From: Gammaproteobacteria bacterium
GTDB lineage: Bacteria; Pseudomonadota; Gammaproteobacteria; Pseudomonadales; Pseudohongiellaceae
Assembly (NCBI GenBank): GCA_947457195.1
Contig: CANGUU010000001.1
Span: 1 to 64,000, forward strand
Reading direction: 5' to 3'
Length of the DNA: 64,000 nt
Both the position numbers and the translations under genes were made by a program. The notes beneath the pieces are model-generated. The model worked only from the letters and a program-made list of their open reading frames with translations. It was not told the DNA's origin and did not search any database. Of the stretch, positions 29,735-47,613 are shown piece after piece (position 1 is the first letter of the stretch; each line of letters opens with the position of its first letter).

Positions 29735-29810
<76 letters not shown>

Positions 29811-29951: not shown

Positions 29952-30025
29952 GGCTGGATGGCAGAGTGGCCATGCAGTGGACTGCAACTCCACGTACGCC
30001 GGTTCGATTCCGACTCCAGCCTCCA
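29952..30025 (+). tRNA. tRNA-Cys (GCA)
   Basis: A 74-base tRNA with encoded CCA. The acceptor GGCTGGA pairs with TCCAGCC, the discriminator base is T as required for cysteine, and loop CTGCAAC gives anticodon GCA at 29984-29986. It stands 141 bases after tRNA-Gly, probably on the same transcript. The expected next gene, tRNA-Leu(UAA), is 17.5 kb away. Confidence 0.97.
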
Positions 30026-30246
30026 TTTCCCCCAGCAGTGCGTTGAGCAGCTCGCCTGACGAGGGCTACCCTCGCCATCGACACCTCTGTCGTCGCCTTC
30101 CCACGACTTGTGTGGGCTCGGACTGCACTTGCCCATCATCGATTGCTCGACTGACTCGCCCGATGCCTGCGCATGGGCTACTCCCTAAAAGCGTTTTCAT
30201 CATTTTGATTTCCCGCTTTGCGTCGTGCCGGGTCTTTGGATATTTG

Positions 30247-30275
30247 TTGACAAATAAATTACGGATCAGTAAAAA
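30247..30275 (+). promoter_or_regulatory. Candidate promoter of the catabolic block
   Basis: TTGACA (30247-30252), 17-base spacer, TAAAAA (30270-30275). The -35 is perfect, the -10 matches four of six. A second possible -10, CATAAT, lies inside the nearby operator-like site at 30303-30317. Confidence 0.5.
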
Positions 30276-30302
30276 CCATTTTGTTCGCGATAAAGAAAAA
30301 AT

Positions 30303-30317
30303 GTTCATAATGCGAAC
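30303..30317. promoter_or_regulatory. Candidate IclR-family operator (left)
   Basis: The 15-mer GTTCATAATGCGAAC has GTTC and GAAC arms seven bases apart. It has the same length and outer arms as the perfect repeat in front of the IclR gene (44480-44494) and resembles the GTTCGATAATCGCAC type of site known for the PcaR/PobR group. It lies about 130 bases before the first gene of the block. Confidence 0.55.
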
Positions 30318-30444
30318 TCAGCTAAAAACATGTCACAGGGGACAAGAAGCCAGGACTGGCTTTCTTCAAGGCGCGTCAGCAGCAGACATCTGACAGCGTG
30401 CCCCGTGTAGCTGCGGTCTTCATCGACTGACCAAGGGGATTTCT

Positions 30445-31272
30445 GTGAAGTTTTTAATCAATTCCGCTTTTTTTTGCCCGCTGGTGCTGGGTTCCTGCTC
30501 GATCCTTTTCAGTTCCCCCGCTGCCTCGCAGTTTGACATCTCGGGTAACTGGCGCGCGCTTGTCCACGAAGATCAGCCCGAACGCGGCCCCGGGCCGGAC
30601 ATCATGGAATTCGTCGGGCTGCCAATAAACGATGCGGCACGACTGGCAGGTATGGCTTGGGACCCAGCGCAATTGGCCATGCCTGAATTCCAGTGCCGCC
30701 CCCATCCTGCCGACTATGGATCGAGACACTCCCACCTACGGATCTGGCAAGAAGTTGATGCTGCCAGCCAACAGACAGTCGCGTGGCGGACTCACAGAGA
30801 ATGGCAAGAACCGGAGCGAACAATCTATATGGATCAGCGAGCGCGCCCATCTTCCTACGCGGCCCATGCCTGGCAGGGTTTCTCACTGGGTTCCTGGGAC
30901 GTCAACATGCTGAACATCCTCACGACTGACTTGAAAAGAGGTTACATCCGTCGAAACGGCATACCCCGCAGCGACGAGGCCGAGTTGCAAGAACACTACA
31001 TTCGCCACGATGAATTTCTCACCATCGTTTCCGTCGTCAAGGACCCAGACTACCTGACGGAGCCTTTCATCCGCAGCAGCAACTACGTCATCGATCCAAG
31101 ACTTGTCATTGCTCCCTATCCTTGCAGCCCAGCCGTGGAGATCGAGCGATCCCGTGGCTATGTGCCGCACTACTTGCCCGGCCAAAATCCTTTCGACGGC
31201 GAGTACGCCAACCGCTATGGCATCGATCTCGATGCTTCGCTGGGCGGTGCCCAGACAATGTACCCAAAGTAG
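30445..31272 (+). CDS. Secreted protein of unnamed family, copy 1
   Basis: 275 residues, starting at GTG after AAGGGGA. An N-terminal signal peptide (FLINSAFFCPLVLGSCSILF ... AASQ) indicates export. The mature part begins DISGNWRALVHEDQPER and carries recurring blocks: WDPAQLAMPEFQCRPHP, REWQEPERTIYMD, WQGFSLGSWD, IRRNGIPRSDEAE, TIVSVVKDPDYLTEPFIR. Roughly three in five residues match the protein at 36600-37421. The short GxW start and beta-rich pattern recall lipocalin-like folds, but I do not know a function. First gene downstream of the candidate IclR site. Confidence 0.8.
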   Translation: MKFLINSAFFCPLVLGSCSILFSSPAASQFDISGNWRALVHEDQPERGPGPDIMEFVGLPINDAARLAGMAWDPAQLAMPEFQCRPHPADYGSRHSHLRIWQEVDAASQQTVAWRTHREWQEPERTIYMDQRARPSSYAAHAWQGFSLGSWDVNMLNILTTDLKRGYIRRNGIPRSDEAELQEHYIRHDEFLTIVSVVKDPDYLTEPFIRSSNYVIDPRLVIAPYPCSPAVEIERSRGYVPHYLPGQNPFDGEYANRYGIDLDASLGGAQTMYPK

Positions 31273-31320
31273 TGCGCGGTAAACGATCCATACTCCATCC
31301 CACATTCCATGGATGAAACC

Positions 31321-32271
31321 ATGAAGCGATATTTGAAAATCATTACCCTCGGCACTTTGGCCATTGCAAGCCAGTCCGCATGGGCACAGCAAAATTTCGA
31401 CAGCGTGGAAATCGAAGTTCTGCCTGTCCGAGATGGTATTTACATGCTGGTGGGTGAGGGTGGAAACATCACGGTACAAACCGGGCCCGATGGGGTGTTG
31501 CTGGTCGACACGCAGTACGCGGAACTCGGTGAAAAGATATTGGCAAAGATCACGGAACTTTCACCGATACCAATCCGCTACATAGTGAATACTCATTCTC
31601 ATCCTGATCATGTAGGCGGGAACGCAGTTTTGGCACCCAGGGGATCGACAATCACTGGGGGCAACGTGGCGAGACTGCAGGAAGATGCAGGTGAGGGCGC
31701 ACAGGTCATCGCTTTCGAGAGCGTTCTCAACAACATGGTTGCAGAGGACTATCCGGTTGAAAGCTGGCCCAGTGAGACGTTTTTCGTTGATCGGAAGGAC
31801 ATGTATTTCAATGGCGAGGGAATAGAGGTCCTCCATCAGCCGAACGCGCATACGGACGGCGATGTCATTGTCTGGTTTCGCAAGTCCGACGTGGTGTCCA
31901 CCGGAGATGTGTTCACTACCACCATGTACCCTTTCATAGATCAGTCCAAGGGCGGCAGCATCAACGGCGTGATCGCCGCGCTCAACACCATCTTAGATAT
32001 CACGATTCCCCGAGCAAAACAGGAAGGCGGCACACTGGTCATTCCAGGTCATGGACGCCTGGCTGATGAAGCGGATGTGGTGGAATACCGCGACATGGTC
32101 ACCATCATCCGCGATCGCATCAAGTCTCTGCGTGACGGCGGCATGTCGCTCGAGGAGGTGAAGGCGGCGGCGCCAACGCGAGACTACGACTCCCGCTACG
32201 GCAGGACAGAAGGATTCTGGACCACCGAGATGTTCATCGAGGCGGTCTACGACGGCGTTCAGGCAAACTGA
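31321..32271 (+). CDS. Secreted metallo-beta-lactamase-fold hydrolase
   Basis: 316 residues with a signal peptide (MKRYLKIITLGTLAIASQSAWA). The zinc motif THSHPDHVGG (HxHxDH) is near residue 92, followed by PNAHTDGD, STGDVFTT and the late histidine in VIPGHGRLAD, so the dinuclear metal site looks complete. Substrate unknown; such periplasmic hydrolases act on lactones, esters and other compounds. I prefer ATG 31321, which follows GGATGAAACC and opens directly into the signal peptide; an ATG four codons upstream is also possible. Confidence 0.85.
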   Translation: MKRYLKIITLGTLAIASQSAWAQQNFDSVEIEVLPVRDGIYMLVGEGGNITVQTGPDGVLLVDTQYAELGEKILAKITELSPIPIRYIVNTHSHPDHVGGNAVLAPRGSTITGGNVARLQEDAGEGAQVIAFESVLNNMVAEDYPVESWPSETFFVDRKDMYFNGEGIEVLHQPNAHTDGDVIVWFRKSDVVSTGDVFTTTMYPFIDQSKGGSINGVIAALNTILDITIPRAKQEGGTLVIPGHGRLADEADVVEYRDMVTIIRDRIKSLRDGGMSLEEVKAAAPTRDYDSRYGRTEGFWTTEMFIEAVYDGVQAN

Positions 32272-32293
32272 GAAATTTCCAGAGGAAATGACC

Positions 32294-32680
32294 ATGAAAT
32301 CGGCACAGCTTTTTTTACTCTGTTTTTCCGTCCTGTCCACGCCCTTGCCGGCATTGGCGCACCACTCCTTCCCCGCCACCTACAATGTGGACGTTGAAAC
32401 AGAGCTACAGGGGGAGGTCGTGGCATTCCTCTATCGGAATCCTCACGCCACCATTCAAGTGATGGTGACCGAGAGTTCTGGTGAGAAAGTCCGGTATCTC
32501 ATCGAGTGGGCGGGGGCTGCCGCGCTTGAAGGATCCGGCGTCAGCCGGGGCACGCTCGTCCCCGGCGATATGGTGGTGATCCTGGGAAATCCTGGACGCA
32601 ACGAAGCAGACCACCGTATGCGCCTTGTCTCGATCCGCCGCCCGTCGGACGGATGGACCTGGGGTCAGGAGTACAACTGA
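32294..32680 (+). CDS. DUF6152-like exported protein
   Basis: A 128-residue exported protein with a clear signal peptide (FLLCFSVLSTPLPALA) followed by HHSFPATYNVDVETELQG, the opening typical of the family I recall as DUF6152. The rest is a small beta-rich domain (VVAFLYRNPHATIQVMV, PGDMVVILGNPGRN). Function unknown. ATG 32294 is chosen because the AGAGGA site is too close to the ATG at 32288. It sits among other exported proteins of the block. Confidence 0.75.
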   Translation: MKSAQLFLLCFSVLSTPLPALAHHSFPATYNVDVETELQGEVVAFLYRNPHATIQVMVTESSGEKVRYLIEWAGAAALEGSGVSRGTLVPGDMVVILGNPGRNEADHRMRLVSIRRPSDGWTWGQEYN

Positions 32681-32736
32681 GTCTGCACTTACCAAACAGT
32701 TTCCGGTGATTTCGCCGTTCGCATCGAGAGTTCACG

Positions 32737-33510
32737 ATGAATAACCAGTCTGCACGTCGTCGTTTCGTCCAACATTGCGCACTTTTTGTCGCGCTCGCTG
32801 CTGCAGGTGGCAGCGAGACCGTGGCGCAAGCCAACCGGGATTCCGGGAGCGCTTCGCAGCCCAAGGATGTTGCACCAGTCGATCTCGCCGGCACCTGGAT
32901 TGCCGTGGTCACCGAAGATTGGCGATGGCGCATGGTAGTGCCTGCCAAGGGTGACTATGCGAGCCTGCCATTGACACCGGAAGGCCGTCGCGTTGCAGAT
33001 GACTGGAATCCGGAAGCAGATCTGGCTTCCGGCAATGAGTGTCGCGCCTATGGTGCCGGTGGGATCATGCGTATGCCGACCCGCGTGCGTATTTCCTGGG
33101 AAGACGGGAACAGCCTGCGTCTGGAAACAGATAAAGGCCGGCAGGTACGGATGTTCCACTTTGATGCCGCGGACCTGTCGGGTGACGGTACCCTGCAAGG
33201 ATCTTCCCTCGCATCGTGGGACGATCGATCACTCAAGGTGGTCACCCGCAACATGTCAGCAGGTTATGTGAGGCGAAATGGGGTCCCCTACAGCGAGGAT
33301 GCGATCGTCACCGAGTGGTTCGATCAACACGTCAGTTTCGGGGAGCAATGGTTCACCGTCACGACCGTCGTGGAAGATCCACGCTACTTCACGCAGAAGT
33401 TCGTTGTCAGTTCCAGTTTCAAGCGACTGGCCGACGACAGTTCCTGGAATCCTGAGCCCTGCATCTCGGCGTGGGGCCCGGTAAAGGAAGGCGACAGATT
33501 TAACGATTGA
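32737..33510 (+). CDS. Secreted protein of unnamed family, divergent copy 3 (Tat-type leader)
   Basis: 257 residues. The N-terminus ARRRFVQHCALFVALAAAGG looks like a twin-arginine leader. The mature part starts LAGTWIAVVTEDWRW and keeps family blocks seen in the proteins at 30445 and 36600: SLASWDDRSLKVVTRNM, GYVRRNGVPYSEDA and FTVTTVVEDPRYFTQKFVV. It is shorter and much more divergent than those two. Function unknown. The shared pattern suggests that it works on the same substrate or surface, which is inference. Confidence 0.75.
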   Translation: MNNQSARRRFVQHCALFVALAAAGGSETVAQANRDSGSASQPKDVAPVDLAGTWIAVVTEDWRWRMVVPAKGDYASLPLTPEGRRVADDWNPEADLASGNECRAYGAGGIMRMPTRVRISWEDGNSLRLETDKGRQVRMFHFDAADLSGDGTLQGSSLASWDDRSLKVVTRNMSAGYVRRNGVPYSEDAIVTEWFDQHVSFGEQWFTVTTVVEDPRYFTQKFVVSSSFKRLADDSSWNPEPCISAWGPVKEGDRFND

Positions 33511-33555
33511 GAAGTCGACGGTTGTCGGCCCGCACCTGACTGGGGTTAATCGATC

Positions 33556-34884
33556 ATGCAAGCACGTACCCTGACCGCACTCCGAAGCTTGGCAGTGACC
33601 GGACCACTCTTGGTAGTCCTCGGCGCCTGTTCCGGTGACAGGCCCGGCGATCTGTCCCGCAACATGCAGGCTGACGAGAATGCTCTGCTGCCGGCGACCA
33701 GCCAGATCATCATCAGCAATGCGCATTTGCTGGATGGCAGTGGTACCGATATTGAAAGCGGCTTCCTTCTCATCAGCAACGGTCGAATTGCCGAGATCAG
33801 TAGTACACCGATTGTGGCCGAGGGGGCGCTGGTGATTGATGCATCGGGCAAAACGGTGATGCCCGGATATATTGAGGCTCACCGTCACATCATCGAGGGT
33901 GCTCCGGCAGAATGGATGGCGGATAAAGCACAATCCGAGATGCAAGCCTTTCTGGAAGCCGGATTCACCACGGTCTTCTCTGCCGGTGATCCACAGACCG
34001 AAATACTCGAACTCAGAAGAAGAACAGCCGCAGGCGAGATCGCAGGGCCTCGTATCATCGCCGCCGGTAGAGCGCCCTTGGCGGTCAGCGCGGCGCCAGG
34101 CGGCGAAGATGATCCTGCCAGAACAGATGTTTCACGTCCTCCGCTGCGCCCCACCGTGGCAGCGATGCCCGTCTCCGATGAGGCAACGGAGCAGCGCGTT
34201 ACAGCGATTTCCGATGCGGGGTTCGATGCGGTAAAGACGGTGATGGTCACCACGCCGGAGGGTCCAGAGATCCGGACCTTGGGTCTGATCGCACAAAAAG
34301 CAAAGGCGCTCGGTCTTCCCACGGTGACTCATGCCGTGACGGTACAAGACACATTAGCCGCTGTGGCCGCTGGTGGTGTGGCCACCTTGGTACATACGCC
34401 ACACATCGGTCAGTTGACTGCAGAAGAAGTCCGACTCATCGCAGACTCAGGCATACCGATCACCTCGACATTGGGAATCTTCGTACCTTTTTTCTCTGAC
34501 AGTAATGCGCCGATTTTTCGCGATGGTGAGGCGTTTCCTTGGGACACCATATCCAGCGCTGGTCAAGGACCCGTGAACGCGCGTCTGCTCTGGGAGGCAG
34601 GGGTGGTCTATGGTTTTGGTACCGATACGCGATTCGCGCCCTCGCTCACGCTTGAACATGAATTGAAGTCGTTGCATCTCGTGTTTTCCGAGCGCGACAT
34701 TCTGAAAATCATGGGTGAGAACGCTGCTATCAATATCAGGATGCAAGACAGGATTGGTTCGCTTCGCCCCGGTATGTATGCCGACCTGGTACTCCTCGAG
34801 GGCAACCCACTCGAGGATCTCTATGATCTACTCCAGGTCACCATGGTATTCAAGGAAGGAAAGATCATGGTGGACAAGCGCTGA
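33556..34884 (+). CDS. Amidohydrolase-family lipoprotein
   Basis: 442 residues. A lipobox (LGAC, Cys25) predicts a lipid anchor. The catalytic domain shows the composite amidohydrolase layout: opening IIISNAHLLDGSGTDIESG, metal motif EAHRH (H109, H111), a possible carboxylated lysine in FDAVKTVMV, histidines in THAVTV and VHTPHIG, the aspartate in GTDTRF and closing beta-sandwich strands (PGMYADLVLLEGNPLED). It belongs near the imidazolonepropionase/prolidase-like group. Cleavage of an amide, lactone or ester outside the cytoplasm is plausible; the substrate is unknown. Confidence 0.85.
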   Translation: MQARTLTALRSLAVTGPLLVVLGACSGDRPGDLSRNMQADENALLPATSQIIISNAHLLDGSGTDIESGFLLISNGRIAEISSTPIVAEGALVIDASGKTVMPGYIEAHRHIIEGAPAEWMADKAQSEMQAFLEAGFTTVFSAGDPQTEILELRRRTAAGEIAGPRIIAAGRAPLAVSAAPGGEDDPARTDVSRPPLRPTVAAMPVSDEATEQRVTAISDAGFDAVKTVMVTTPEGPEIRTLGLIAQKAKALGLPTVTHAVTVQDTLAAVAAGGVATLVHTPHIGQLTAEEVRLIADSGIPITSTLGIFVPFFSDSNAPIFRDGEAFPWDTISSAGQGPVNARLLWEAGVVYGFGTDTRFAPSLTLEHELKSLHLVFSERDILKIMGENAAINIRMQDRIGSLRPGMYADLVLLEGNPLEDLYDLLQVTMVFKEGKIMVDKR

Positions 34885-34921
34885 TGCTACGTGATGATTC
34901 TTTCGGAACAGGAATGCAGCC

Positions 34922-36559
34922 ATGACTGAATATCTGAAGCGTAACCCTCAGAGCCGGCGCGGTTTCGTCCGGTCCTTGGCTTTTGGATCGAGCGCCCTCT
35001 GGCTAGGGGGCTTCATGCACAGGACTTTGGCCCAGGACCAACGTCTGGCGGTTCCAGGCGCCACTGTTTCCACGACGTATGGTCAGGTTCGTGGCCTTGT
35101 GCGTGATGGAGTGCAGCAGTTCTGGGGTTTGGCCTACGGAGCCTCCACTGAAGGTGAAAACAGGTTCATGCCTCCAAAGGCACCGGGATCCTGGCGCGGT
35201 GTGCGCGATCACTTCCAGATTGGCAAACGCTGCTTTCAAGCCCCAGGCGCCGGCGAACCCGCACCGGTCGTATTGGCGATGAATCGTCTGGAGGAAGAGA
35301 GCGAGGACTGCCTGCGCTTGAATGTTTTCACCCCCGCGGCAGACAACCGGGCGAGGCCCGTGATGGTGTGGATGCATGGGGGTGGCTTTACGGCAGGGTC
35401 CGGCAATTATCTGATGTATGACGGCACCTACCTTGCCAAAAAAGAGGAGGTCGTGGTGGTCTCCGTGACTCATCGGCTCAATATTTACGGCTTTCTCCAT
35501 CTGGCGGAGCTCGGGGGCGAGAAGTGGCAACAGTCGACCAACGTCGGTTTGCAGGACCTGGTAGCAGCCCTGGCATGGGTCAGGAACAACATAGCGCAAT
35601 TCGGCGGTAACCCGGACAACGTGACTATTTTTGGCCAGTCCGGAGGGGGTGGCAAAACCACGACTCTCATGGCCACTCCGTCGGCAGCCGGTCTCTTCCA
35701 CCGCTGTATCGCCCAGAGTGGGTCAGCGATCACGGGCATCTCCGCTGGGGATGCCACGGCCGCCAGCCAGGAGTTCCTTGCCCGGCTTGGCGTCAGGGCC
35801 AGTGACATGGATCAATTGCAAAAGTTGCCTGTCGCACAAATACAGACAGCTTTTTATTCCCAGCCGGTCATTGCTCGGCTCGGCACCGGTCCGGTCATTG
35901 ACGGTTCTGTCATTCCGCGCAATCAGTGGGACCCCACCGCGCCAGCCTGGTCGGCGGATGTGCCCTTGATGGCGGGGTCGACCGAAACGGAAAATGGCTG
36001 GGTGGGCCCCCCACCGCTGGAGTTGCCCGAGGAGGAAATGCGGTCACTGTTCACCTCCCGACTGGCGAAGGATGATGCAGCCCGGGGGAGTGCGCTGCTT
36101 GCCCTTTACCGACGACTGCATCCTGAGCGGAGCAATCGCATGCTCTGGCTCACCGCGGAGTCGGATGACACCCGACGCTGGAATGCACAGCAGTTGTGTC
36201 GCCTCAAGACGGCACAGGCGGCCGCGCCTGCCTATCTTTACTTCTTCAATTGGTACTCCCCAGTTCATGACAACCGCATGGGAGCCTATCACACGCTCGA
36301 CATTCCCTTCGTGTTCAACAATGTCGATGTTGCTGCGTCCATGACCGGTGCAGCGGAGGAGCGATACCAGCTTGCCCACGTCATGAGTGCCGCCTGGGCA
36401 GCATTCGCCCGGACAGGTAACCCCGATCATCCGGATATGCCGCATTGGCCAGCCTTCAATGCCAACGACTATCCAACGATGGTGTTTGGTAGCCAAGTTG
36501 CTGTGAGGAATGACCCCAATAAAGAAGAGAGACTTGCTTTGGCAGCTATCCGCACATGA
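34922..36559 (+). CDS. Tat-exported type-B carboxylesterase
   Basis: 545 residues. A twin-arginine signal (QSRRGFVRSLAFGSSALWLG) predicts folded export. The alpha/beta-hydrolase core has the oxyanion segment MHGGGF (151-156) and the nucleophile elbow FGQSGGGG with Ser240; this replaces the commoner GESAGG and occurs in a known para-nitrobenzyl-esterase-like subgroup. The region YHTLDIPFVFNN carries the likely catalytic His, and GSTETENGW the acidic-residue region. In this block it may release a phenol or aromatic acid from an ester. Confidence 0.88.
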   Translation: MTEYLKRNPQSRRGFVRSLAFGSSALWLGGFMHRTLAQDQRLAVPGATVSTTYGQVRGLVRDGVQQFWGLAYGASTEGENRFMPPKAPGSWRGVRDHFQIGKRCFQAPGAGEPAPVVLAMNRLEEESEDCLRLNVFTPAADNRARPVMVWMHGGGFTAGSGNYLMYDGTYLAKKEEVVVVSVTHRLNIYGFLHLAELGGEKWQQSTNVGLQDLVAALAWVRNNIAQFGGNPDNVTIFGQSGGGGKTTTLMATPSAAGLFHRCIAQSGSAITGISAGDATAASQEFLARLGVRASDMDQLQKLPVAQIQTAFYSQPVIARLGTGPVIDGSVIPRNQWDPTAPAWSADVPLMAGSTETENGWVGPPPLELPEEEMRSLFTSRLAKDDAARGSALLALYRRLHPERSNRMLWLTAESDDTRRWNAQQLCRLKTAQAAAPAYLYFFNWYSPVHDNRMGAYHTLDIPFVFNNVDVAASMTGAAEERYQLAHVMSAAWAAFARTGNPDHPDMPHWPAFNANDYPTMVFGSQVAVRNDPNKEERLALAAIRT

Positions 36560-36599
36560 GGCTGTCCCTCCGTCATCACGGTGCAACGAGAAGAATTTC

Positions 36600-37421
36600 A
36601 TGAACAAGCTTCACAGCTCTTTCGGCAGGCTCGGCTTACTGTCTTTCCTGCTGGCGCTGCAGTCCCTGCCTGTTTCAGCACAGGACCTCACGGGTGGATG
36701 GGCCATCCTGATTCACGAAGACTTTCCGGAGCGCATTCCGGGACCGGACATTGCAGAGTATGCGGGTGTACCGCTCAATGCGGCGGCGCGTTACAGGGCA
36801 CTGTCCTGGGACCCTGCCCAGTTGGCCATGCCGGAATACCAATGCCGCCCACATCCATCGGACTACGGGAACCGTTTTTCCGATCTGCGGGTATGGCGGG
36901 AGGTGGATCAGGCCAGCCAAAGAACGACAGCGCTGCAGATGCGTCGGGAATGGCAGGCACCGGAGCGCACCATCTACCTGGATGGTCGTGCTCGCCCCTC
37001 CGCGCATGCCCAGCATACCTGGCAAGGATTCTCGTTGGGTGAATGGGACGGCAACATGCTGAACGTTCAGACAACGCACCTGAAAGCCTCTTATGTCAGA
37101 CGTAACGGTGTGCCACGCAGCGACCAGGCGGAGCATCAGGAGCATTACATCGTCCACGACGAGCACCTGACCATTGTGACGGTCATCAAGGATCCTCTCT
37201 ATCTTGAAGAACCTTTCATCAGGACGACCAATTACCGTCTGGATCCGAGATTTTCCATCGATCCTTACCCCTGCGAGCCCGCCGTCGAAATCGAGCGAGA
37301 CCGCGGGTTTGTTCCCCACTATCTGCCAGAGGAAAATCCCTTCCTCGAGGAGTACGCCGAGCGCTACGGACTGCGATTCGAAGATGCGATGGGGGGCGCG
37401 AGCACCATGTATCCGAAATAG
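36600..37421 (+). CDS. Secreted protein of unnamed family, copy 2
   Basis: 273 residues with a signal peptide (LGLLSFLLALQSLPVSA). It is the closest relative in the window of the protein at 30445: both share HEDxPERxPGPDI, WDPAQLAMPE, ERTIY, WQGFSLG, RRNGxPRSD, TEP/EEPFIR and the C-terminal TMYPK. It precedes the TonB-dependent receptor by 126 bases. The start is ATG 36600; upstream residues of the longer frame overlap the esterase gene and are not protein-like. Function unknown. Confidence 0.8.
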   Translation: MNKLHSSFGRLGLLSFLLALQSLPVSAQDLTGGWAILIHEDFPERIPGPDIAEYAGVPLNAAARYRALSWDPAQLAMPEYQCRPHPSDYGNRFSDLRVWREVDQASQRTTALQMRREWQAPERTIYLDGRARPSAHAQHTWQGFSLGEWDGNMLNVQTTHLKASYVRRNGVPRSDQAEHQEHYIVHDEHLTIVTVIKDPLYLEEPFIRTTNYRLDPRFSIDPYPCEPAVEIERDRGFVPHYLPEENPFLEEYAERYGLRFEDAMGGASTMYPK

Positions 37422-37547
37422 GACCAGAATCCGTTGTCCGGGTGGAACCGGAGTCCATGCGACGATCCGCCAAGAATGCACCAAGCAGTAAAGCAGTCGC
37501 ACCTGAAGGCCAACCAAAAATACTCACGATTTTCAGAGGAAAAACAT

Positions 37548-40148
37548 ATGGCACGTGCAGCGAGAAAACCAACGCCAAAATTCCGAGCCAAAAGCAGCCT
37601 GCTGCTGACTGCGATCAGTACGGCAGCAGCATTACACCCGCTGGCCGGTCAGGCGCAGGCTACCAACCAACTGGAAGAAGTCGTTGTTTCTGCCACCAGA
37701 CGGGTACAGAACCTCCAGGAGGTTCCGCTTGCCATCACGGCAATTACCGGTGACGCGCTGCTGGCCCGCGGCGTCGAGAACATTGGCAACATGAACGCGC
37801 TGGCGCCCAACCTCAGTGTGATGGGGGGAGGTAACTCGGGTGAATCGCAGGCCTCCTTCCGTGTGCGCGGCATGCCAGGCGTTGCCTTCTACATCGATGG
37901 CATCAATCAGGCTACCACTGACGGTCTTCTCACGATGGGAACTGTCGAAGTCGAGCGCGTGGAAGTGCTGCGCGGCCCGCAGGGCACTATCTTCGGCAAT
38001 GCCTCTCTCGGCGGTGCGATCAACTACGTCACCAAGGCCCCAGGCGGGGAATTCGGCGCCAAGATTCGCACGTCAGTCGGCAGCTTCAACCGCCGGGATC
38101 TTGTGGCTTCTGTGGATCTGCCGATCGGCACTAACCTCAGTTCGAAGTTCACCGTTGCCAGCATGGCGAGGGATGGCTTCATCGAAAGCCAAGTGATCGA
38201 CCGTGACTACGGTGACGTCAACGACGAGTTGGTGAGGGCAGATTTCCTCTGGACGCCATTGGACCGACTCCGCGTCCGTTATAACGCCGAGTTCGCGAAT
38301 ACCGACCGCAACGGCCCGGCGCGCGTGGTCTGGGAAGTCGGTCCCATGAAGACCTTCAACGTTGGCAGGATTCTCTACAACACCAATCCCAACGCTCAGG
38401 TGTACAAGAACGCGTTTGGCTACTCGTACACCACGGAGAACTCAGCCTCCGGTCAAGGGGGCGTCCTCGGCAAGTACGACACCAAAGTGGCCTGGAAAAC
38501 CAACGGCATCGTCATCGACCTCGAGCGTCATACCCTCGATTGGACCCTCGACGTCACCGACTGGTTCAAGATCCGCTCACTCACCGGTTACAAGGCCGTG
38601 ACGCGCAGCGCCCAGGTTGACTTCGACGGTGACCAGAACGTGATTCTTCTGGAACGCGACAATCGCAACAAGAACTACGATGCACTGCAGGAACTCCAGC
38701 TCCTCGGCACCTGGGGAAAAATCGACGCCGTGCTGGGCGGCTATTGGGAGCAGTCTTACGCACGCGCCCGCACCATCACCTGGGGGATGCCTGAGTTCAC
38801 CTGCGATCTCTGGAATGCCAGTAACCTGGAGCGCGTCACGGCAGCGCAACGCACCCAGTGCTTCAACAACCGCAAGCAGGCCCTGGGCGTCACTGACCCC
38901 GCCATCATGACCAATGCCCAGCTGACAGCGCTCGCGCCCAACCTGATGGGCGTGACGCAAAGTACCTTTACCGGCGCAGCCAGCAACAACAATGACCAGA
39001 TGAACATCACTCGACCAGAAACCCGGGCCGTGTTTGGAGACTTTACCTGGAACATTACTGACCGACTGACCCTCGCAGCCGGCATTCGCTACAGCGAAGA
39101 CACCAATCCACTCGCCGTGGTTCTCAGCAACAACAGCACCCTGCTGAGCCGCGGCACCTTGCTGCCTGACAATGACATTCCCAATTTCTTCGGGGCAAAG
39201 AGTATTCCGGCTGCAACGGGTGAAACCACGTTTGATGCGTTGACCAAGCGACTCACCGTCCGGTACCAGATCACCGATGACATTATGGTTTACGGTACTT
39301 TTGCCGATGGTTATGGGCCGGGTGGTCAGTCCAACACGCCGGCCTCCATCCTCTCCTACATGGCAAGGGGCGCAGCGGCTGGTGTGGTATCCGACATACC
39401 GGCCAACGTGTTCCGTCCAGAGCAGACGGTGAAGAATTACGAACTGGGGCTGCGTGCAGACTGGCTGAATGGTGATCTGCGTACCAACGTCACGTTGTTC
39501 AACACGGACTGGGAAAATGTGCCGGTTAGCCAGTACATCGCCACCAAGTACTGGGATACCGACGGCAACAACGCTCCAGACAGCACCATCGATGTCGATG
39601 GAGTACCCGGTCCGGACATCTTCTTTTATCCAAGCCTGTGGAACACTCCAGCCAGTGAGGCCATCGCCCGGGGTGTGGAAATCGAAGCCAACTGGATACC
39701 CACGGAGCGTCTGCGTGTCGACCTCAGCGTCGGGTTGCTGGAGACCGAGTATCAGAAGCTGGGCCTCGCGGGCCAGGGTGCCGTCCCGGCCGTCAGCATC
39801 GGAAGCCAGTTTGCGGGAGCGCCGGAAGTCACTACAAACCTTGCCGTCTCCTATGACCTGCCATTGAGCAACGGCGCGATGCTGCTGCCACGCATGGACT
39901 ACACGTACACCGACGACTACACGCTGCAAACCGGGGAGATCCTTCAGCGGACCCAGGAAGGCTTTGGCATGCTCAACGCGCGCCTTACCTATGACTCCGG
40001 CCAGGACTGGACCGTCGAGCTGTCAGCGACCAACCTGACGAATGAGTACTACTTCAATTCGGGCTTTTTCACCCGGGCGGAGCAGATTCACTTCATGACG
40101 GTTGGTCGGCCTCGGGAATGGGGGCTGACGTTCAGCTACAACTACTGA
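37548..40148 (+). CDS. TonB-dependent outer-membrane receptor
   Basis: 866 residues. After a signal region (LLLTAISTAAALHPLAGQAQA), the TonB-box-like start LEEVVVSATRRVQNLQEVP leads into the plug domain (GEASFRVRG-type region, VEVLRGPQGTIFGNASLGGA). A long beta-barrel follows with alternating aromatic strands, ending in FSYNY with a terminal aromatic residue. It most resembles receptors of the sphingomonad/gammaproteobacterial organic-solute type rather than a clear siderophore receptor. ATG 37548 follows AGAGGA at seven bases; the longer frame upstream is discarded. Probably imports the substrate of the block. Confidence 0.9.
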   Translation: MARAARKPTPKFRAKSSLLLTAISTAAALHPLAGQAQATNQLEEVVVSATRRVQNLQEVPLAITAITGDALLARGVENIGNMNALAPNLSVMGGGNSGESQASFRVRGMPGVAFYIDGINQATTDGLLTMGTVEVERVEVLRGPQGTIFGNASLGGAINYVTKAPGGEFGAKIRTSVGSFNRRDLVASVDLPIGTNLSSKFTVASMARDGFIESQVIDRDYGDVNDELVRADFLWTPLDRLRVRYNAEFANTDRNGPARVVWEVGPMKTFNVGRILYNTNPNAQVYKNAFGYSYTTENSASGQGGVLGKYDTKVAWKTNGIVIDLERHTLDWTLDVTDWFKIRSLTGYKAVTRSAQVDFDGDQNVILLERDNRNKNYDALQELQLLGTWGKIDAVLGGYWEQSYARARTITWGMPEFTCDLWNASNLERVTAAQRTQCFNNRKQALGVTDPAIMTNAQLTALAPNLMGVTQSTFTGAASNNNDQMNITRPETRAVFGDFTWNITDRLTLAAGIRYSEDTNPLAVVLSNNSTLLSRGTLLPDNDIPNFFGAKSIPAATGETTFDALTKRLTVRYQITDDIMVYGTFADGYGPGGQSNTPASILSYMARGAAAGVVSDIPANVFRPEQTVKNYELGLRADWLNGDLRTNVTLFNTDWENVPVSQYIATKYWDTDGNNAPDSTIDVDGVPGPDIFFYPSLWNTPASEAIARGVEIEANWIPTERLRVDLSVGLLETEYQKLGLAGQGAVPAVSIGSQFAGAPEVTTNLAVSYDLPLSNGAMLLPRMDYTYTDDYTLQTGEILQRTQEGFGMLNARLTYDSGQDWTVELSATNLTNEYYFNSGFFTRAEQIHFMTVGRPREWGLTFSYNY

Positions 40149-40183
40149 GTGGTTGTGGTCGAGCGGGCGGTCTAAAACCGTTG

Positions 40184-40218
40184 CGGTGTCCGGAAGCCTT
40201 CGGTGCTTCCGGGCACCG
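40184..40218 (+). terminator. Hairpin after the TonB receptor gene
   Basis: Fourteen-pair stem CGGTGTCCGGAAGC / GCTTCCGGGCACCG with one G-T pair and a loop holding C-TTCG-G, 36 bases past the receptor stop. Only a weak T-run (CTTTC) follows. It probably ends or stabilises the upstream transcript. Confidence 0.6.
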
Positions 40219-40272
40219 GCTTTCGCAGGACCTGACTGAATTGATCAAGCACCGCACTGCCGTATTTCTCCC

Positions 40273-40662
40273 ATGAAGCCGTGGACCCAGGAAAAGAACG
40301 CGCCGTTACCCGGGCAGTTTCTCTGCTCACTGGACGGATTCACCGAGGGCGAGATTCGGGAAATCACCTTCGCCCGGGGCAGCAAGCATCCTTTTCACTT
40401 GTTCATTCATAGGCAGGGTGGCGAGCTGCGCTGTTATGTCAACCGCTGTCCACACTTCGGTATCCCGCTCAATCTCGAGCCGGGGATGCTGTTGTCCAGT
40501 GACCGACAGCAGTTCATGTGTTCCACCCACTATGCCCGCTTCAACTTTCATGACGGCCTGTGTACGGAGGGTCCCTGCGAGGGCGGTGCCCTGGAGCGGA
40601 TACCGGTCGAGATCAGGAATGCAGCCCTGTATGTCGCGCCCTTCCTGGCCGCAGGCGACTGA
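40273..40662 (+). CDS. Rieske [2Fe-2S] ferredoxin-like protein
   Basis: 129 residues with one Rieske motif: C-P-H in YVNRCPHFGIPLN and C-S-T-H in MCSTHYARFNFHDG, separated by 21 residues, which is wider than in classic dioxygenase ferredoxins. The following CTEGPC and DGL segments fit the small stand-alone Rieske family. No signal peptide. It would carry electrons to an oxygenase, but no Rieske oxygenase alpha subunit or reductase lies in the window. It is followed two bases later by the Dabb-domain gene. Confidence 0.85.
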   Translation: MKPWTQEKNAPLPGQFLCSLDGFTEGEIREITFARGSKHPFHLFIHRQGGELRCYVNRCPHFGIPLNLEPGMLLSSDRQQFMCSTHYARFNFHDGLCTEGPCEGGALERIPVEIRNAALYVAPFLAAGD

Positions 40663-40664
40663 GC

Positions 40665-40970
40665 ATGTACAAGCACCTCGTGATCTGGAAACTCGTCGAA
40701 AGGGCCGATGCACCCCAGGTCGTGCAGGCGGCGCAAGGCATTCTGGAGGAGCTCCGGCGCGCCAGCGCTGGCCTGCTCACGCTCGAACTGGCGAGTACCG
40801 TGGGTGGCGATGAAACCGCAGGTGATCTGGTGCTGTATTCGGAATTCAGCAGTGCGGCGGCCTACCGGGACTACGACCGTTCCCCGGGCCACCAGGAGTT
40901 GAAGAAGGTGATCGGTCCCTATCGGAAACAGCGAATAGGGGCGGATTACCTCGTTCCCGATAACGGCTAA
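40665..40970 (+). CDS. Dabb-domain (stress-responsive alpha/beta barrel) protein
   Basis: 101 residues starting at ATG 40665 (MYKHLVIWKLVE). The dimeric alpha/beta-barrel family is recognised by the opening KHLVIWKL, the central VLYSEFSSAAAYRDYDRSPGH and the terminal basic segment. Some members are aromatic cyclases or hydrolases (olivetolic acid cyclase is one), others have no known role. It is tightly spaced after the Rieske gene, so the two are probably coupled. A role in the aromatic pathway is inference. Confidence 0.8.
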   Translation: MYKHLVIWKLVERADAPQVVQAAQGILEELRRASAGLLTLELASTVGGDETAGDLVLYSEFSSAAAYRDYDRSPGHQELKKVIGPYRKQRIGADYLVPDNG

Positions 40971-41012
40971 ACTGTTCCGCAGGGCAGCGCCCATGATGAC
41001 GAAGGGAAGGGC

Positions 41013-42218
41013 ATGAGAGACGCTTACATTTGTGATGGCATACGCACGCCCATTGGGCGGTTTGGCGGCACCTTGGCCTGTGTGCGCGCCGATGACCTCG
41101 CTGCCCTTCCGCTGCAGGCGCTGATGACCCGTAATCCTGAGGTGGATTGGTCTGCTCTCGATGACGTGGTGTACGGCTGTGCCAATCAGGCCGGTGAGGA
41201 TAATCGCAATGTGGCGCGCATGGCCGTGCTGCTGTCAGGTCTGCCACTCTCGGTCGGTGGCACGACAATCAACCGCCTGTGCGGCTCCAGTCTCGATGCC
41301 GTTGCAATCGCGGCAAGGGCCATCAAGACGGGCGAGGCCGACCTGCTCATCGCCGGGGGAGTCGAGTCCATGTCGCGTGCTCCCTTCGTGATGAACAAGG
41401 CCGATTCAGCTTACGCACGCACGATGAAGCTGGAGGACACTACCATCGGTTGGCGCTTCGTGAATCCGCAGATGGTCAAGCTGCACGGTACCGACAGCAT
41501 GCCGGAAACGGCGGAAAACGTTGCGGCGGAGCACGGGATCAACCGCGCCGACCAGGATGCCTTTGCGCTGCGCAGCCAGCAAAGAACCGCGGCAGCGCAG
41601 GCGCTGGGGCACTTGGCAGCCGAAATCGTCCCGGTCACCGTTGCCTCGGGCAAAACCACCGTCCAGATCAGTGTCGATGAGCATCCACGTTCCGACACTA
41701 CGCTGGAAAAGCTGGCCCGTCTGAAGCCCGTCGTGCGGCCAGATGGCACGGTGACGGCTGGCAACGCCTCTGGCGTGAATGATGGCGCAGCCGCACTGCT
41801 GTTGGCCTCCGCCGATGCCGTACGCAAGTACAACCTGCAGCCGCTGGCGCGCGTAGTGACCTCGACAACCGTGGGACTCTCGCCACGCGTCATGGGTTTT
41901 GGTCCCGCCCTGGCCATCGAAAAACTCTTTGCGCGCAACGGACTTGGCATACACGATATCGATCTGTTCGAACTCAACGAGGCCTTTGCAGCCCAGATGC
42001 TGGCCGTCACAAGGAAGCTGGGCTTGCCCGACGATGCAGCGCACGTGAATCCGAACGGAGGAGCCATCGCGTTGGGACATCCGCTTGGCGCCAGCGGAGC
42101 GCGCATCGCACTTGCGGCCGTGCGGCAGCTGCAGCGGCAAAAGGCACGCCGGGCCCTGTGCAGCATGTGCATCGGCGTAGGGCAGGGTATCGCTGTGCTG
42201 CTTGAAAGCGTGCTCTGA
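41013..42218 (+). CDS. pcaF: 3-oxoadipyl-CoA thiolase
   Basis: Splits 3-oxoadipyl-CoA into succinyl-CoA and acetyl-CoA, the last step of the beta-ketoadipate route. The 401-residue thiolase has nucleophile Cys90 ([12 protein letters not shown]), the histidine in [16 protein letters not shown] and the second Cys in [10 protein letters not shown]. The opening [16 protein letters not shown] is typical of PcaF. The CoA-transferase downstream supports oxoadipyl-CoA over acetoacetyl-CoA as substrate. Confidence 0.93.
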
Positions 42219-42256: not shown

Positions 42257-43603
42257 ATGAAATCCGTACCGCAGATAACTGTCCAGGAAGCCGCAGCCAA
42301 GGTAAGAACGGGCGACACGCTCGTCGTAGGCGGCTTCGGCATGACGGGCCACCCGATCCACCTGTTGCACGCCATCGCCGAGACCGGCGTAAAGGAACTG
42401 ACCTACATCGGCAACAACGTGGGTGAACCCTTTCTTGGTGCCGGGCGCCTGCTGCGCAACGGCCAAATCAAAAAGGCCATCGGGTCTTTCTTCACCAGCA
42501 ATCCGGAGGCGGTGGCAGCTGCGCAAACCGGACAAATGGACGTGCAGCTGATTCCTCAGGGCAGCCTCGGGGAAGCGATCCGGGCGGGCGGGGCAGGGCT
42601 CGGCGGCTTCTACACGCCCAGTTCGGCGAACACCGTGCTGGCGAAAGGCCTGGAGACCCGGGTGCTGGAAGGCAAGGACATGGTGTTCGTGCGTCCGCTG
42701 CGCGGCAACGTGGCCCTCGTGCGGGCTTGGCGCGCTGATACTCTCGGCAACCTGCAGTACCGCAGGACAGAAAACAACTTCAACCAGGCAGTGGCAACCG
42801 CCGCTGATCTCGTGATCGCCGAGGTCGAGGAGATCGTGCCTGCCGGCAGCATGGATCCGGATTTCGTGCATACGCCCGGCTGCCTGGTGGACTTCCTCGT
42901 GCAGGCATCCCTCGAACTGAAGGATTTGGGCTCCTCGGCAGCCATCGAAAAACTCGATACGAGCACCGACAACACCAAGCTACGCATTGCCCGTGCCGTA
43001 CTCGATGAATTGAGGCCCGGGGAAGTGGTGAACCTTGGCATCGGCATTCCAACCCTGGTGGCTGATTTGATCACTCCGTCACACCAACTCACGCTGCACA
43101 CGGAGAACGGCATGCTGGGTGTGGGACCAAGCCCGGAGTCTGGCGGAGCCATGGACTATCCAGTCAATGCCGGCAAGATCCCGGTGACGGCCCTGCCTGG
43201 CGCCTCCTACTTCGACTCGACGACGTCCTTCAACATGATTCGTGGTGGCCACATCGACGTCGCCGTCATGGGCGCACTCGAGGTAGATGCGCACGGCAAT
43301 CTGGCCAATTGGGCCATCCCGGGCAAACCGCTGCTGGGCGTCGGCGGTGCGATGGATCTCTCCTGCGGGGCCAAGCGGGTGATCGTCACCATGACGCATA
43401 CCAACAAGAGTGGTGAATCGAAAATCCTGCCCCAGTGCGTGTTGCCGCTGACGGCGCAGGGAGTCGTGGATGTGGTGGTGACAGAGTTGGCGGTCTTCCA
43501 CTTTACCGATGCCGGACTCACGCTCAAGAAAGTCATGCCCGGGTCTTCGCTCGAGGAAATCACTGCACGAACGGCGGCGGCTTTCGTTGTCGATCTGGTC
43601 TGA
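42257..43603 (+). CDS. pcaIJ: 3-oxoadipate CoA-transferase, subunits A and B fused
   Basis: Transfers CoA from succinyl-CoA to 3-oxoadipate. The 448-residue protein joins an A domain ([15 protein letters not shown] and [12 protein letters not shown], about residues 1-215) to a B domain ([21 protein letters not shown] onwards, from about 240). The catalytic glutamate is E283 in LHTENGMLG, and [17 protein letters not shown] is conserved. In most bacteria the subunits are separate; here they form one chain with a short linker. Neighbouring thiolase and hydroquinone genes point to 3-oxoadipate rather than acetoacetate. Confidence 0.9.
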
Positions 43604-43657: not shown

Positions 43658-44440
43658 CTACAAGGCGTCGCTGATCTTTCTGGCCGCCTCACGCAGCTGG
43701 GGCAGTATCTCCTTCAGCAGTTTGCTCTCACTGACTTTGAGGGGCTGAGAGCTCACATTGATGGCGGCCACTGCCTTGCCTTGCCGGTTGCGAATGGGCA
43801 CCGCCAGAGAGCGAAGGCCGATCTCCAGTTCTTGATTGCAGATGGCATAGCCCTTTTTACGCGCCATCTGGATTTCGCCCTTGATTTGCGCAGGCTCCAC
43901 GAGGGTATGCTTTGTGAATCGTTCGACGGAGACTTTGGCCAGCAACTCGTCGATCTCCTCATCACCTCTGGCGGCCAGCAGTACGCGGCCCATGGATGTC
44001 GTGACCGCAGGGAGTCTCGCGCCAACATTGAGACTGACCGACATGATCTGGTGGGAGAGCGTTCGGGCCACATAAACCACATCGGGAAAATCCAGCACGG
44101 AGACCGAGCAGGATTCACCGATGGCATCACACAGTTCCTTGGTATAGGGTTGAACGCGCTCGATCAACGGCTGAGATGCAAGGTAGGAGTAACCGAGATC
44201 GAGCACCTTGGGCGTCAGCCAGTACAATTTGCCATCAGACTCCATATAGCCGAGTTGGTGCAGGGTATGCAGGAATCGTCTTGCGGTGGCGCGTGTCAGG
44301 TTCGCAAGCCGCGCGACCTCCGAAAGGGTCATCTCTGTATGTTGATGATCAAAGCAACGGATGACGGCGAGGCCTTTTGCCAGTGAGGCGACATATTCGC
44401 GGTTGGCTCCCGCAAATGTGCTTGACAAGGTGTTTTTCAT
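43658..44440 (-). CDS. IclR-family transcriptional regulator (PcaR/PobR type)
   Basis: 260 residues. The N-terminal winged helix-turn-helix is near residues 38-57 (MTLSEVARLANLTRATARRF), followed by an effector domain (VYVARTLSHQIMSVSLNVG, GRVLLAARGDEE). It matches the group that regulates beta-ketoadipate genes (PcaR, PobR, PcaU). It is transcribed away from the dioxygenase genes, across a gap holding a perfect inverted repeat. I infer that it controls both the divergent dioxygenase transcript and the left end of the block. Confidence 0.9.
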   Translation of the reverse strand: MKNTLSSTFAGANREYVASLAKGLAVIRCFDHQHTEMTLSEVARLANLTRATARRFLHTLHQLGYMESDGKLYWLTPKVLDLGYSYLASQPLIERVQPYTKELCDAIGESCSVSVLDFPDVVYVARTLSHQIMSVSLNVGARLPAVTTSMGRVLLAARGDEEIDELLAKVSVERFTKHTLVEPAQIKGEIQMARKKGYAICNQELEIGLRSLAVPIRNRQGKAVAAINVSSQPLKVSESKLLKEILPQLREAARKISDAL

Positions 44441-44572: not shown

Positions 44573-45073
44573 ATGTCACCCAAGTACTCCACCTACTTTG
44601 CCTCCATCGACTCCTATCAGAAGGGTGGGGTGCAGATCATCGACGACAACATCAAGAATTTCGTGTTTTCGAACATCTACGAGGTGGCGGCAACCCATAA
44701 GCCTTACGAGCGCATCGTGGTAGGCAAGAACCTCGATTACACCCTGGAAGTTGCTCGGGCTGAGGGCGCATCACCCTGGTACGCCTGTGCACACGACGAG
44801 TTCGTCGTTGCCATGGACTACAACGTCGAGGTCCATTTCGTGGAACTGGCGGAGCCCGGCAGCCTCGATGACGACCGAGACGGAGCCGTGAGATTGGCAG
44901 GGCAGCCCCCGGGCAAGAAGATTGGCAAAGTCATCCTGCAGCGGGGTCACATGGCGCTGCTGCCTGAAAAAACCGCCTACCAGTTCCAGTCCGCCAGGCC
45001 CGCCACTCTGCTATTTCAGACGATTCTCGGACAAGAGTCTGTCGAGCGCTGGAACGACATCTGTCTCAAGTAA
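44573..45073 (+). CDS. Hydroquinone 1,2-dioxygenase small subunit
   Basis: 166-residue cupin-like protein, the small partner of the next gene. The size, the position directly before the large subunit and segments such as YACAHDEFVVAMDYNVEVHFV and GHMALLPEKTAYQF fit the small subunit of two-component hydroquinone dioxygenases (PnpC/HapC type). ATG 44573 follows GAGGA. The stop codon lies inside a 16-base tandem duplication. The enzyme opens hydroquinone to 4-hydroxymuconic semialdehyde. Confidence 0.82.
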   Translation: MSPKYSTYFASIDSYQKGGVQIIDDNIKNFVFSNIYEVAATHKPYERIVVGKNLDYTLEVARAEGASPWYACAHDEFVVAMDYNVEVHFVELAEPGSLDDDRDGAVRLAGQPPGKKIGKVILQRGHMALLPEKTAYQFQSARPATLLFQTILGQESVERWNDICLK

Positions 45074-45138: not shown

Positions 45139-46116
45139 ATGACAAGCGCACTCCAGATGAAAGTGGACAGCACGGTGACAGGCTTCAAGGTCTTCACCAT
45201 CGGCAGTTTCCGGTTCGAACGCTGCGAATACTTCGCCTACATACATTGGCCGCAGGGCAGTCACATGATGCCCGTTGATGCCTTTCTGCGCGCGCTCATG
45301 CGGGACATCGCCTGGGGTTTCTTCTACGGGACCGTGAATTTCGACGAAGTCGTCGGTACGACCAATCACTACGGAACTGTGGACCTGTTCGCGGGCACTC
45401 TCAATGCCGAGTACAAGGCGAGCGGCAAGGATTACCTCGAGACCTTTCCGTCCGATGTGCTCATGAAGCTTTTCATCGACATGCAGAATGACTGGACCAA
45501 TTCTGGCTTCGATCCTTTTGCAGCGCCTCAGGAAACCGGTGAGGCGTGGGGGCGAAAGAACGGATCCAACCGGGAGGCGATAGCTCGCAAGCGGCAAACG
45601 GCCAAGCGCATGATCGGTGTACCCGGCGACACCGAGGTACGTAGCGATGCCAACGGCTATACAGTGAACCGCGCGTTCCTGGACGTGGATCAGAGCAGCC
45701 CGGAAATCGTCGAAGAACCGGGCTTCACCAACCGGATCCATGCGTTCAATCTGTTTGCTTTCCTGTCCCGCTCCGATGTGACCTGGAATCCCTCAGTGGT
45801 CTCGGTCATCCGGCAAAGTCTGCTGTGCCCGACGACGGAGGAATTCATCCTGCCCATCGAACACGGTAACGATCGCGTGGAGTGGTTCCTGCAGGTGTCC
45901 GACGAAATTTTCTGGGAGATCAAGGACGGTCAGACCGGCAAGATTCGCGCAAACGTGGTGATGAAGGCGGGCGACGTATGCTGTATGCCGGCCGACATCC
46001 GGCACAAGGGCCTGTCGCCCAAGCGGTCAATGCTGATCGTCTGGGAGAACGGTTCTCCAGAGATCATGCAAATGGTCAAGAACGGCACGGTACCGCGCGT
46101 TGGAGTGGAATTCTGA
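45139..46116 (+). CDS. Hydroquinone 1,2-dioxygenase large (catalytic) subunit
   Basis: 325 residues, PnpD/HapD family. The Fe(II) site is readable: H242, N244 and E248 in EHGNDRVEW and H289 in ADIRHKG. This is the H-x-N-x3-E pattern, with the fourth ligand 47 residues after the first, the same spacing I recall for the ligands of PnpD (His256, Asn258, Glu262, His303). Other shared blocks are FRFERCEYFAYIHWPQGSH and MRDIAWGFFYGTVNFD. Together with the small subunit it cleaves hydroquinone using O2. ATG 45139 follows AGAGG. Confidence 0.9.
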   Translation: MTSALQMKVDSTVTGFKVFTIGSFRFERCEYFAYIHWPQGSHMMPVDAFLRALMRDIAWGFFYGTVNFDEVVGTTNHYGTVDLFAGTLNAEYKASGKDYLETFPSDVLMKLFIDMQNDWTNSGFDPFAAPQETGEAWGRKNGSNREAIARKRQTAKRMIGVPGDTEVRSDANGYTVNRAFLDVDQSSPEIVEEPGFTNRIHAFNLFAFLSRSDVTWNPSVVSVIRQSLLCPTTEEFILPIEHGNDRVEWFLQVSDEIFWEIKDGQTGKIRANVVMKAGDVCCMPADIRHKGLSPKRSMLIVWENGSPEIMQMVKNGTVPRVGVEF

Positions 46117-47524: not shown

Positions 47525-47613
47525 GCCCGGGTGGTGAAATTGGTAGACACAAGGGACTTAAAATCCCTCGACCCTCAAAGGTCGTACCGGTTCGATTCCG
47601 GTCCCGGGCACCA
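47525..47613 (+). tRNA. tRNA-Leu (UAA)
   Basis: An 89-base class II tRNA with encoded CCA. The acceptor GCCCGGG pairs with CCCGGGC, loop CTTAAAA (stem AGGGA/TCCCT) gives anticodon TAA at 47559-47561, and a long variable arm (GACCCTCAAAGGTC) is present. It corresponds to leuZ, which in Escherichia coli directly follows the glyW and cysT genes. Confidence 0.97.

Follow-up and report, generated by a model that had tools for sequence, protein, structure and literature searches.

We report that a 17.5 kb block of 16 genes in the genome of a gammaproteobacterium of the Pseudohongiellaceae joins a set of exported proteins to a hydroquinone ring-cleavage pathway, and that this block is a catabolic unit moving laterally between genomes. 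The block (genes at 30445-47266) lies in a stretch of 64,000 nucleotides, here called the window, which opens contig 1 of a genome of 2.8 Mb (G000; G-numbers denote genomes and L-numbers the loci examined). It contains three members of an unnamed exported family, for which we use the working name FAM, and one protein of the family DUF6152. The finding itself is real, and its interpretation is partly supported. On balance we favour the view that the stretch from tRNA-Cys to tRNA-Leu combines an envelope front end that would process a phenolic compound with a cytosolic back end that would cleave its ring. This reading draws on the conservation and relocation of the block as a whole, its repeated association with genes of the hydroquinone dioxygenase PnpCD, the fusions in which FAM takes part, the paired histidines of DUF6152 and the predicted barrel fold of FAM. 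The N-terminal histidines, the fusions and the mobility of the block go beyond the original prediction, which was made from the letters of the window and had placed an exported degradation module in front of a hydroquinone pathway.

A mobile block and its link to hydroquinone dioxygenases

The block stands between tRNA-Cys (gca; 29952..30025, plus strand), the final ancestral gene ahead of it, and tRNA-Leu (taa; 47525..47613, plus strand), and it splits a tRNA-Gly-Cys-Leu cluster (29735-47613) whose left side also holds tRNA-Gly (gcc; 29735..29810, plus strand). In seven of nine relatives, G003 and G009 included, the three tRNA genes lie within about 610 bases in the region behind pgsA; in G007, close to where a contig ends, Gly and Leu are present and Cys is not, and in G011 there are Gly and Cys, while the 4 kb of contig that are left hold no Leu. 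All 16 genes recur in identical order in the two congeners G003 and G009, where the block is homologous piecewise over window positions 30529-47272 and sits on contigs with no tRNA genes in the scanned stretches. Because the 16 genes are ordered alike at other sites and the tRNA cluster is intact in relatives, we call the block transferable. The ratio dN/dS was 0.034-0.108 for the 12 block genes tested against L104, with dS near saturation, and these low values, together with the order kept in two congeners, argue that the arrangement is more than chance. No integrase was found among the named genes of the block, and there were no clear attachment repeats, the flanks sharing only a 14-base tRNA T-arm stretch in a comparison of 11-base words; the exact ends of the insertion were not located, as the spacers are too diverged for alignment. 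The contigs of the metagenome-assembled genomes at L104 and L132 are titled Klebsiella pneumoniae and Bordetella parapertussis; their content fits uncultured relatives and the titles look wrong.

When named genomes were searched with an alignment of famA proteins, the best of the 423 matches gave 79 loci, in Gammaproteobacteria and Acidobacteria. Within these 79, our profiles labelled famA in 72, a metallo-beta-lactamase (MBL)-fold protein in 66, famB in 52, DUF6152 in 29, and PnpD with PnpC in nine (L104 and L105, which carry the window block; L106 and L110; L109 and L114; L113 and L119, from Acidobacteria; and L179). PnpCD is divergent from famA in this set, except in the window-block copies. 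The co-location argues for our reading since both partners are rare in the class: of 369 genomes drawn from it, 5 have PnpD, and in a like draw of 369 a single genome has famA-type proteins at E ≤ 1e-50. A further argument is that another esterase stands between PnpC and famA in L114 and L109. In L114 it is of the Tannase family (PF07519, tested with Pfam) and is accompanied by an aldehyde dehydrogenase, CobS/CobT genes and an FAD_binding_4 protein that, recognised from its sequence, appears to be of the 4-cresol-dehydrogenase kind. L109 has the tannase (88% identical to that of L114), the dehydrogenase and CobS/CobT at 88-96% identity to L114, plus a cytochrome c. The CobS/CobT genes adjoin hydroquinone dioxygenase and Rieske genes in both (L109 1672-4423, L114 1677-4458).

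A different layout was read in five genomes of genus g3, in the order pcaIJ, IclR, PnpC, PnpD, aldehyde dehydrogenase, maleylacetate reductase, Rieske and pcaF. An MBL-famB cassette follows pcaF on the opposite strand, with DUF6152 behind it, in all five. An intradiol dioxygenase gene precedes this order in all but L211, where it was not called (Dioxygenase_N/C was tested with Pfam in L208 only), a Dabb gene is present in four (not called in L212), and famA is part of the cassette in four; in L212 none was called there, and another cassette lies upstream.

We then have the PnpD places of the family itself, for which 33 rows were listed and 32 were read, a fragment in G008:C508 below the cut-off being left out. 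Many of these places are orthologous, with three copies of the window block and five of the g3 block, and FAM was present in the fetched stretch at 15 of the 19 that are window-like or more distant and FAM-linked. The four others (L214, L219, L220, L270) come from contigs 3-14 kb long. The remaining places are of what we call the C45 type (at least 86% identity to the PnpD of contig 45 and about 50-52% to that of the window), and FAM or DUF6152 was found at 0 of these 13. Since these genomes are rich in FAM genes, the C45 type serves as a useful internal control, and the link holds for certain PnpCD types. C45-type PnpC-PnpD genes, mostly with a HapE-like dehydrogenase, are widespread in the family (L203, that is G000:C45, 9378-12496, and the 12 places L257-L268).

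At the level of whole genomes, 16 of the 36 in the family have famA at E ≤ 1e-50, and some PnpD is present in 16/16 of these and in 2/20 of the others; with the C45 type excluded, the figures are 14/16 and 1/20, a pattern that follows phylogeny (genera g1-g3). On the FAM tree, where 20 of 132 rows are famB-like, the label 'PnpD near' (23/132 rows; unlabelled rows may merely be cut-off loci) changes 12 times, at least 11 of the changes being forced, and none of 500 shuffles was as low (mean 21.4). The link between FAM and PnpCD was thus gained or lost more than once, several times over. Near PnpCD and a FAM-DUF6152 pair, L216 (511-4129) also encodes a DUF1592/DUF1588/DUF1585/DUF1587/DUF1595 protein and a DUF1552 protein. 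No paper combining a hydroquinone dioxygenase and a TonB-dependent receptor was found in a search of PubMed Central (PMC) full texts.

Gene content of the block and the proposed route

The original prediction described seven exported products followed by a TonB-dependent receptor, with three of the seven in one unnamed family. All eight open reading frames (ORFs) were confirmed at 30445-40148, on the plus strand and in the same direction, and both statements agree with the ORFs, the Pfam matches, the N-terminal signals (judged by eye) and the family comparison. The order is famA1 (30445..31272), an exported MBL-fold hydrolase (31309..32271; Lactamase_B, 3.3e-19; HSHPDH and further His/Asp motifs by reading), the DUF6152 protein (32288..32680; 4.7e-17), famB (32737..33510), a lipoprotein amidohydrolase (33556..34884; Amidohydro_1, 7.6e-22; prolidase-like, with phenylurea hydrolase also matched), a carboxylesterase exported by twin-arginine translocation (Tat) (34922..36559; COesterase, 2.1e-96; near Est50 and p-nitrobenzyl esterase), famA2 (36600..37421) and the TonB-dependent receptor (37548..40148; 5.1e-27 for the ORF 37434-40148). 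famA1 and famA2 are 66% identical and famB is a distant paralogue (31%, E 2.8e-20); the ORFs at 30445, 32737 and 36510 matched no Pfam family at E ≤ 0.001. Sec-type signals are visible on the products of 30445, 31309, 32288 and 36600, and that of 32737 has a signal-like hydrophobic start. The carboxylesterase has the twin-arginine motif SRRGFVRS, the amidohydrolase the lipobox LGAC and the receptor a TonB-box-like LEEVVVSATRR. The start of famA2 is likely at 36600 rather than 36510, and that of the receptor likely at 37548 rather than at the TTG at 37434. As a SoxH-related quinoprotein relay metallohydrolase (TIGR04559), the MBL-fold protein was rejected (85.1 bits against a cut-off of 280).

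Behind the receptor, also on the plus strand except for the regulator, are genes for a Rieske [2Fe-2S] ferredoxin-like protein (40273..40662, Pfam), a Dabb-type small protein (40665..40970; similar to the gene at L208 8438-8728, which matches Pfam Dabb), the 3-oxoadipyl-CoA thiolase PcaF (41013..42218; TIGR02430, above the cut-off) and a fused PcaI-PcaJ-type CoA transferase (42257..43603). A regulator gene on the minus strand follows (43658..44440; G003 and G009 have orthologues at 82-83% identity), whose product, to judge from its sequence, appears to be of the IclR type. The large subunit of the hydroquinone 1,2-dioxygenase, PnpD/HqdB (45139..46116), matches HqdB (PDB 5m21) at E 7.2e-142, residues 12-325 aligning with 28-341 of 5m21_B, which we take to be the enzyme of Sphingomonas TTNP3. 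Directly upstream of it, a gene of 166 amino acids (aa) (44573..45073) is assigned to the small subunit PnpC by its position, which is kept in relatives, and by its conservation. The last gene (46211..47266), similar to iron-containing alcohol dehydrogenases, probably encodes a maleylacetate reductase, to judge from its context. Elsewhere in the window, ARAGORN called a tRNA-Asp of 98 bases at 25439-25536 that overlaps ORFs and may be false given its odd length.

In the route that we favour, the TonB-dependent receptor would take up a phenolic compound, the calycin-like FAM barrels would bind it in the periplasm, and the MBL-fold enzyme, the lipoprotein amidohydrolase and the Tat carboxylesterase would strip its side groups there. 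DUF6152 would work with FAM, in a metal-based redox step or in copper handling. In the cytosol, PnpCD would then open the ring of the freed hydroquinone-type core, and the cleavage product would pass through maleylacetate and 3-oxoadipate, by way of PcaIJ and PcaF, to central metabolism; the semialdehyde dehydrogenase that this needs may be supplied from another contig. The best match to such an enzyme in the genome is HapE-like (G000:C45:11033) and stands next to the second PnpCD. The gene-level parts of the route are observed; what we infer is which substrate is used, that it is bound and hydrolysed, which way it flows and which metal takes part.

DUF6152 and FAM, two paired envelope families

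The DUF6152 protein of the window has the predicted mature N-terminus HHSF and an internal NPH. Among 93 distinct members of the family in the loci examined, many of them close relatives, a His-His pair is found in 92 at the point where the signal peptide ends, and the single exception (L071) is a FAM fusion. The residue at -1 is Ala in 80, Ser in 5, Gly in 4 and Pro in 3, and the -3/-1 rule for predicted cleavage fits 89/92. The His of an (Asn)-Pro-His motif is kept in 92/93, a Glu in 89 and a Trp in 83. The five plasmid copies checked, two of them from Novosphingobium and one each from Paracoccus, Cupriavidus and Sinorhizobium, all start with His-His; four have NPH and one PPH. FAM adjoins three of the five, and DUF6644-like membrane proteins are near four. 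The latter (L252-L255) have conserved His and could be a membrane partner, in an arrangement that is presumably similar in plan to that of CopC and CopD. The DUF6152 profile had no match in the PDB better than E 0.11, and no paper in the PMC full texts searched mentions DUF6152 or DUF6644.

In histidine-brace copper proteins the mature N-terminal His is conserved and is joined by an internal His, as an excerpt of one account describes, which also states that N-terminal His is common in proteins generally (PMC10952591); YcnI/DUF1775, according to part of another, uses an N-terminal His and a Glu, with a Trp nearby (PMC8424229). The pattern in DUF6152 makes it a probable metal-binding protein, for copper, that starts with a histidine. 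A wider idea, which we regard as speculative, is that DUF6152 may be an unrecognised exported copper family that, with the calycin-like FAM barrels, would act in the periplasm as a redox unit that binds aromatic compounds; it might be an oxidase or a monooxygenase that DUF6644 membrane proteins feed. Dozens of versions might then exist in some uncultured Gammaproteobacteria, and perhaps in Acidobacteria, each with its own substrate, and the window copy would ready phenolics for hydroquinone cleavage.

FAM itself could not be placed in a known family: NCBIfam gave no match for famA1, the famA profile had no sequence match in the PDB, and the FAM part of ten divergent members had no Pfam match beyond chance, although fused DUF6152, Lactamase_B and a weak DUF3471 were seen. 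Foldseek matched a model of famA2 (pLDDT 85.7, pTM 0.80) to UnaG and to proteins that bind retinol or fatty acids (best E 8.2e-4, CRBP1), and VIA-align placed it near NanoLuc (Z 8.6) and CRBP1 (Z 8.2) over residues 25-217. With modest confidence, we regard FAM as a calycin-like ligand-binding barrel; the invariant Glu, Asp, Arg, Lys and His residues of its alignment may leave room for an enzyme. FAM and the MBL-fold protein form one ORF in 15 of the 79 named-genome loci (for example L064 4721-6529 and L063 7933-9741) and also in G000 and G004. In one such fusion that was modelled (pLDDT 90.8, pTM 0.91), the MBL part was nearest to 8d2z, chlorothalonil dehalogenase and BcII. Fourteen fusions of FAM with DUF6152 were found with our own profiles, DUF6152 being confirmed by Pfam in three. 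Spread of famA on plasmids was not seen at 1e-5 in 72,556 plasmid records; the FAM genes that adjoin the three plasmid DUF6152 genes are distant members.

Both families are greatly expanded. The genome of the window has 58 matches to the famA profile and 54 to DUF6152 (PF19649), and across 57 genomes the number of matches to one family rises with that to the other (Spearman 0.95, or 0.86 for the 36 genomes of the window's own family). Among 21 genomes from the other families of the order, none has FAM and one has DUF6152. For 42 of the 52 FAM genes in fetched G000 loci outside the window, DUF6152 is either fused (14) or at most two genes away (28). The other neighbours are mixed, and both tallies of them have small counts and use crude gene calls. 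In G000, the 86 scanned (genes of at least 150 aa at most two places from a core gene) included four pyrroloquinoline quinone (PQQ) dehydrogenases, three cytochromes c, three esterases, three TonB plugs and one tannase. In named loci without PnpD, 82 neighbours of the FAM core, hand-selected from 412 dereplicated ones (150, then 92, then 82), included three tannases, three PQQ proteins, three of the major facilitator superfamily, two HpaB, two carboxylesterases and others.

Rival readings and comparison with known systems

Several observations weigh against the reading of the block as a front end feeding a ring-cleavage pathway. The 13 C45-type places come from the same genera, in stretches of 5-19 kb, and no FAM match was obtained in four of the five class genomes that have PnpD, so hydroquinone cleavage as such can do without FAM. 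No 4-hydroxymuconic semialdehyde dehydrogenase was found in 30445-47266, the amidohydrolase and carboxylesterase are near PnpCD only in the three copies of the window block, and the fold assignment of FAM has modest scores, with middling Z values on a predicted model. Most FAM and DUF6152 copies, moreover, do not stand beside ring-cleavage genes. The original prediction had proposed looking for co-occurrence with dioxygenase genes in other genomes, and had named a mostly unrelated setting of the exported genes as a result that would count against it. PnpCD does lie by famA in two phyla, the 16-gene block recurs in G003 and G009, and 15/19 places contrast with 0/13, so that the assignment of the exported set to the hydroquinone pathway stands; as a general setting for FAM and DUF6152, which are mostly elsewhere in the genome, it does not.

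That prediction was more exact, namely that an aromatic compound with an ester or amide linkage is taken up and cut back until its phenolic core is left. We think this possible but rather doubtful: the carboxylesterase and amidohydrolase have clear enzyme relatives, and L114 and L109 add a tannase-family esterase, but other loci with PnpCD and famA lack both enzymes and have in common FAM and MBL, to which famB and DUF6152 are often added. It is unlikely, in our view, that the exported genes instead shield the envelope from redox cycling of hydroquinone and quinone, DUF6152 holding copper and FAM binding quinones so that toxic copper-hydroquinone chemistry is avoided. The N-terminal His-His, the DUF6644-like membrane proteins near plasmid DUF6152 and the FAM-DUF6152 pairs by PnpCD with no visible famA cassette (L215, L216, L217, L221, L269) would fit such a role, which nevertheless leaves the TonB receptor, the carboxylesterase, the amidohydrolase and the tannase unexplained. 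It would also have to accommodate C45-type PnpCD with neither family beside it, and FAM-DUF6152 pairs by PQQ dehydrogenases and tannases where there is no PnpCD. The abundance of both families in a 2.8 Mb genome and their mixed neighbours could even mean that they are general envelope proteins of the lineage, duplicated about 50 times, with PnpCD nearby by accident. This seems to us very unlikely, given the different frequencies of FAM at the two kinds of PnpD place in the same kind of genomes, the several gene orders in which famA stands by PnpCD in two phyla and the presence of the whole block at different sites.

The reading of the block as an envelope front end with a cytosolic back end would give two abundant families of no known function, tied to a known pathway in two phyla, their first testable role. 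A genome of only 2.8 Mb invests heavily in the FAM-DUF6152 system, which is the more novel part. If DUF6152 does bind copper, it would join the few known families of copper proteins that begin with a histidine, and among these are some that oxidise highly resistant substrates. Our data also hint at how uncultured bacteria recorded in metagenomes of lakes, seas and soils may handle phenolic matter outside the cytoplasm.

DUF6152 resembles the histidine-brace and mono-histidine-brace proteins (lytic polysaccharide monooxygenases, CopC, YcnI/DUF1775) in that its signal peptide is predicted to end right before a conserved His and that a second His (NPH) is present, and it resembles YcnI in its conserved Glu and Trp (PMC8424229, in part). 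It differs in having two His at its start and in being paired and fused with FAM; the excerpted histidine-brace account does not name it (PMC10952591). FAM may share with calycin proteins such as retinol- and fatty-acid-binding proteins and NanoLuc the antiparallel beta-barrel that is predicted for it, but it has a longer chain, two conserved Cys and many invariant charged residues. Chlorothalonil dehalogenase and SdsA1 are among the MBL-fold structures nearest to the FAM-MBL fusion, at 19% and 18% identity, values from which activity is not inferable. The MBL-fold protein of the window has its best NCBIfam match in the SoxH-related TIGR04558/04559, with the same fold, but scores far below the cut-off and has other partners. 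With the HapCD/PnpCD/HqdAB pathway the block has in common a PnpD homologue, an adjacent small subunit, PcaIJ, PcaF and a maleylacetate-reductase-like gene; it differs in the missing semialdehyde dehydrogenase, the added Rieske and Dabb genes and the eight exported or outer-membrane genes in front. The ring-cleavage pathway is known and the envelope front end is not.

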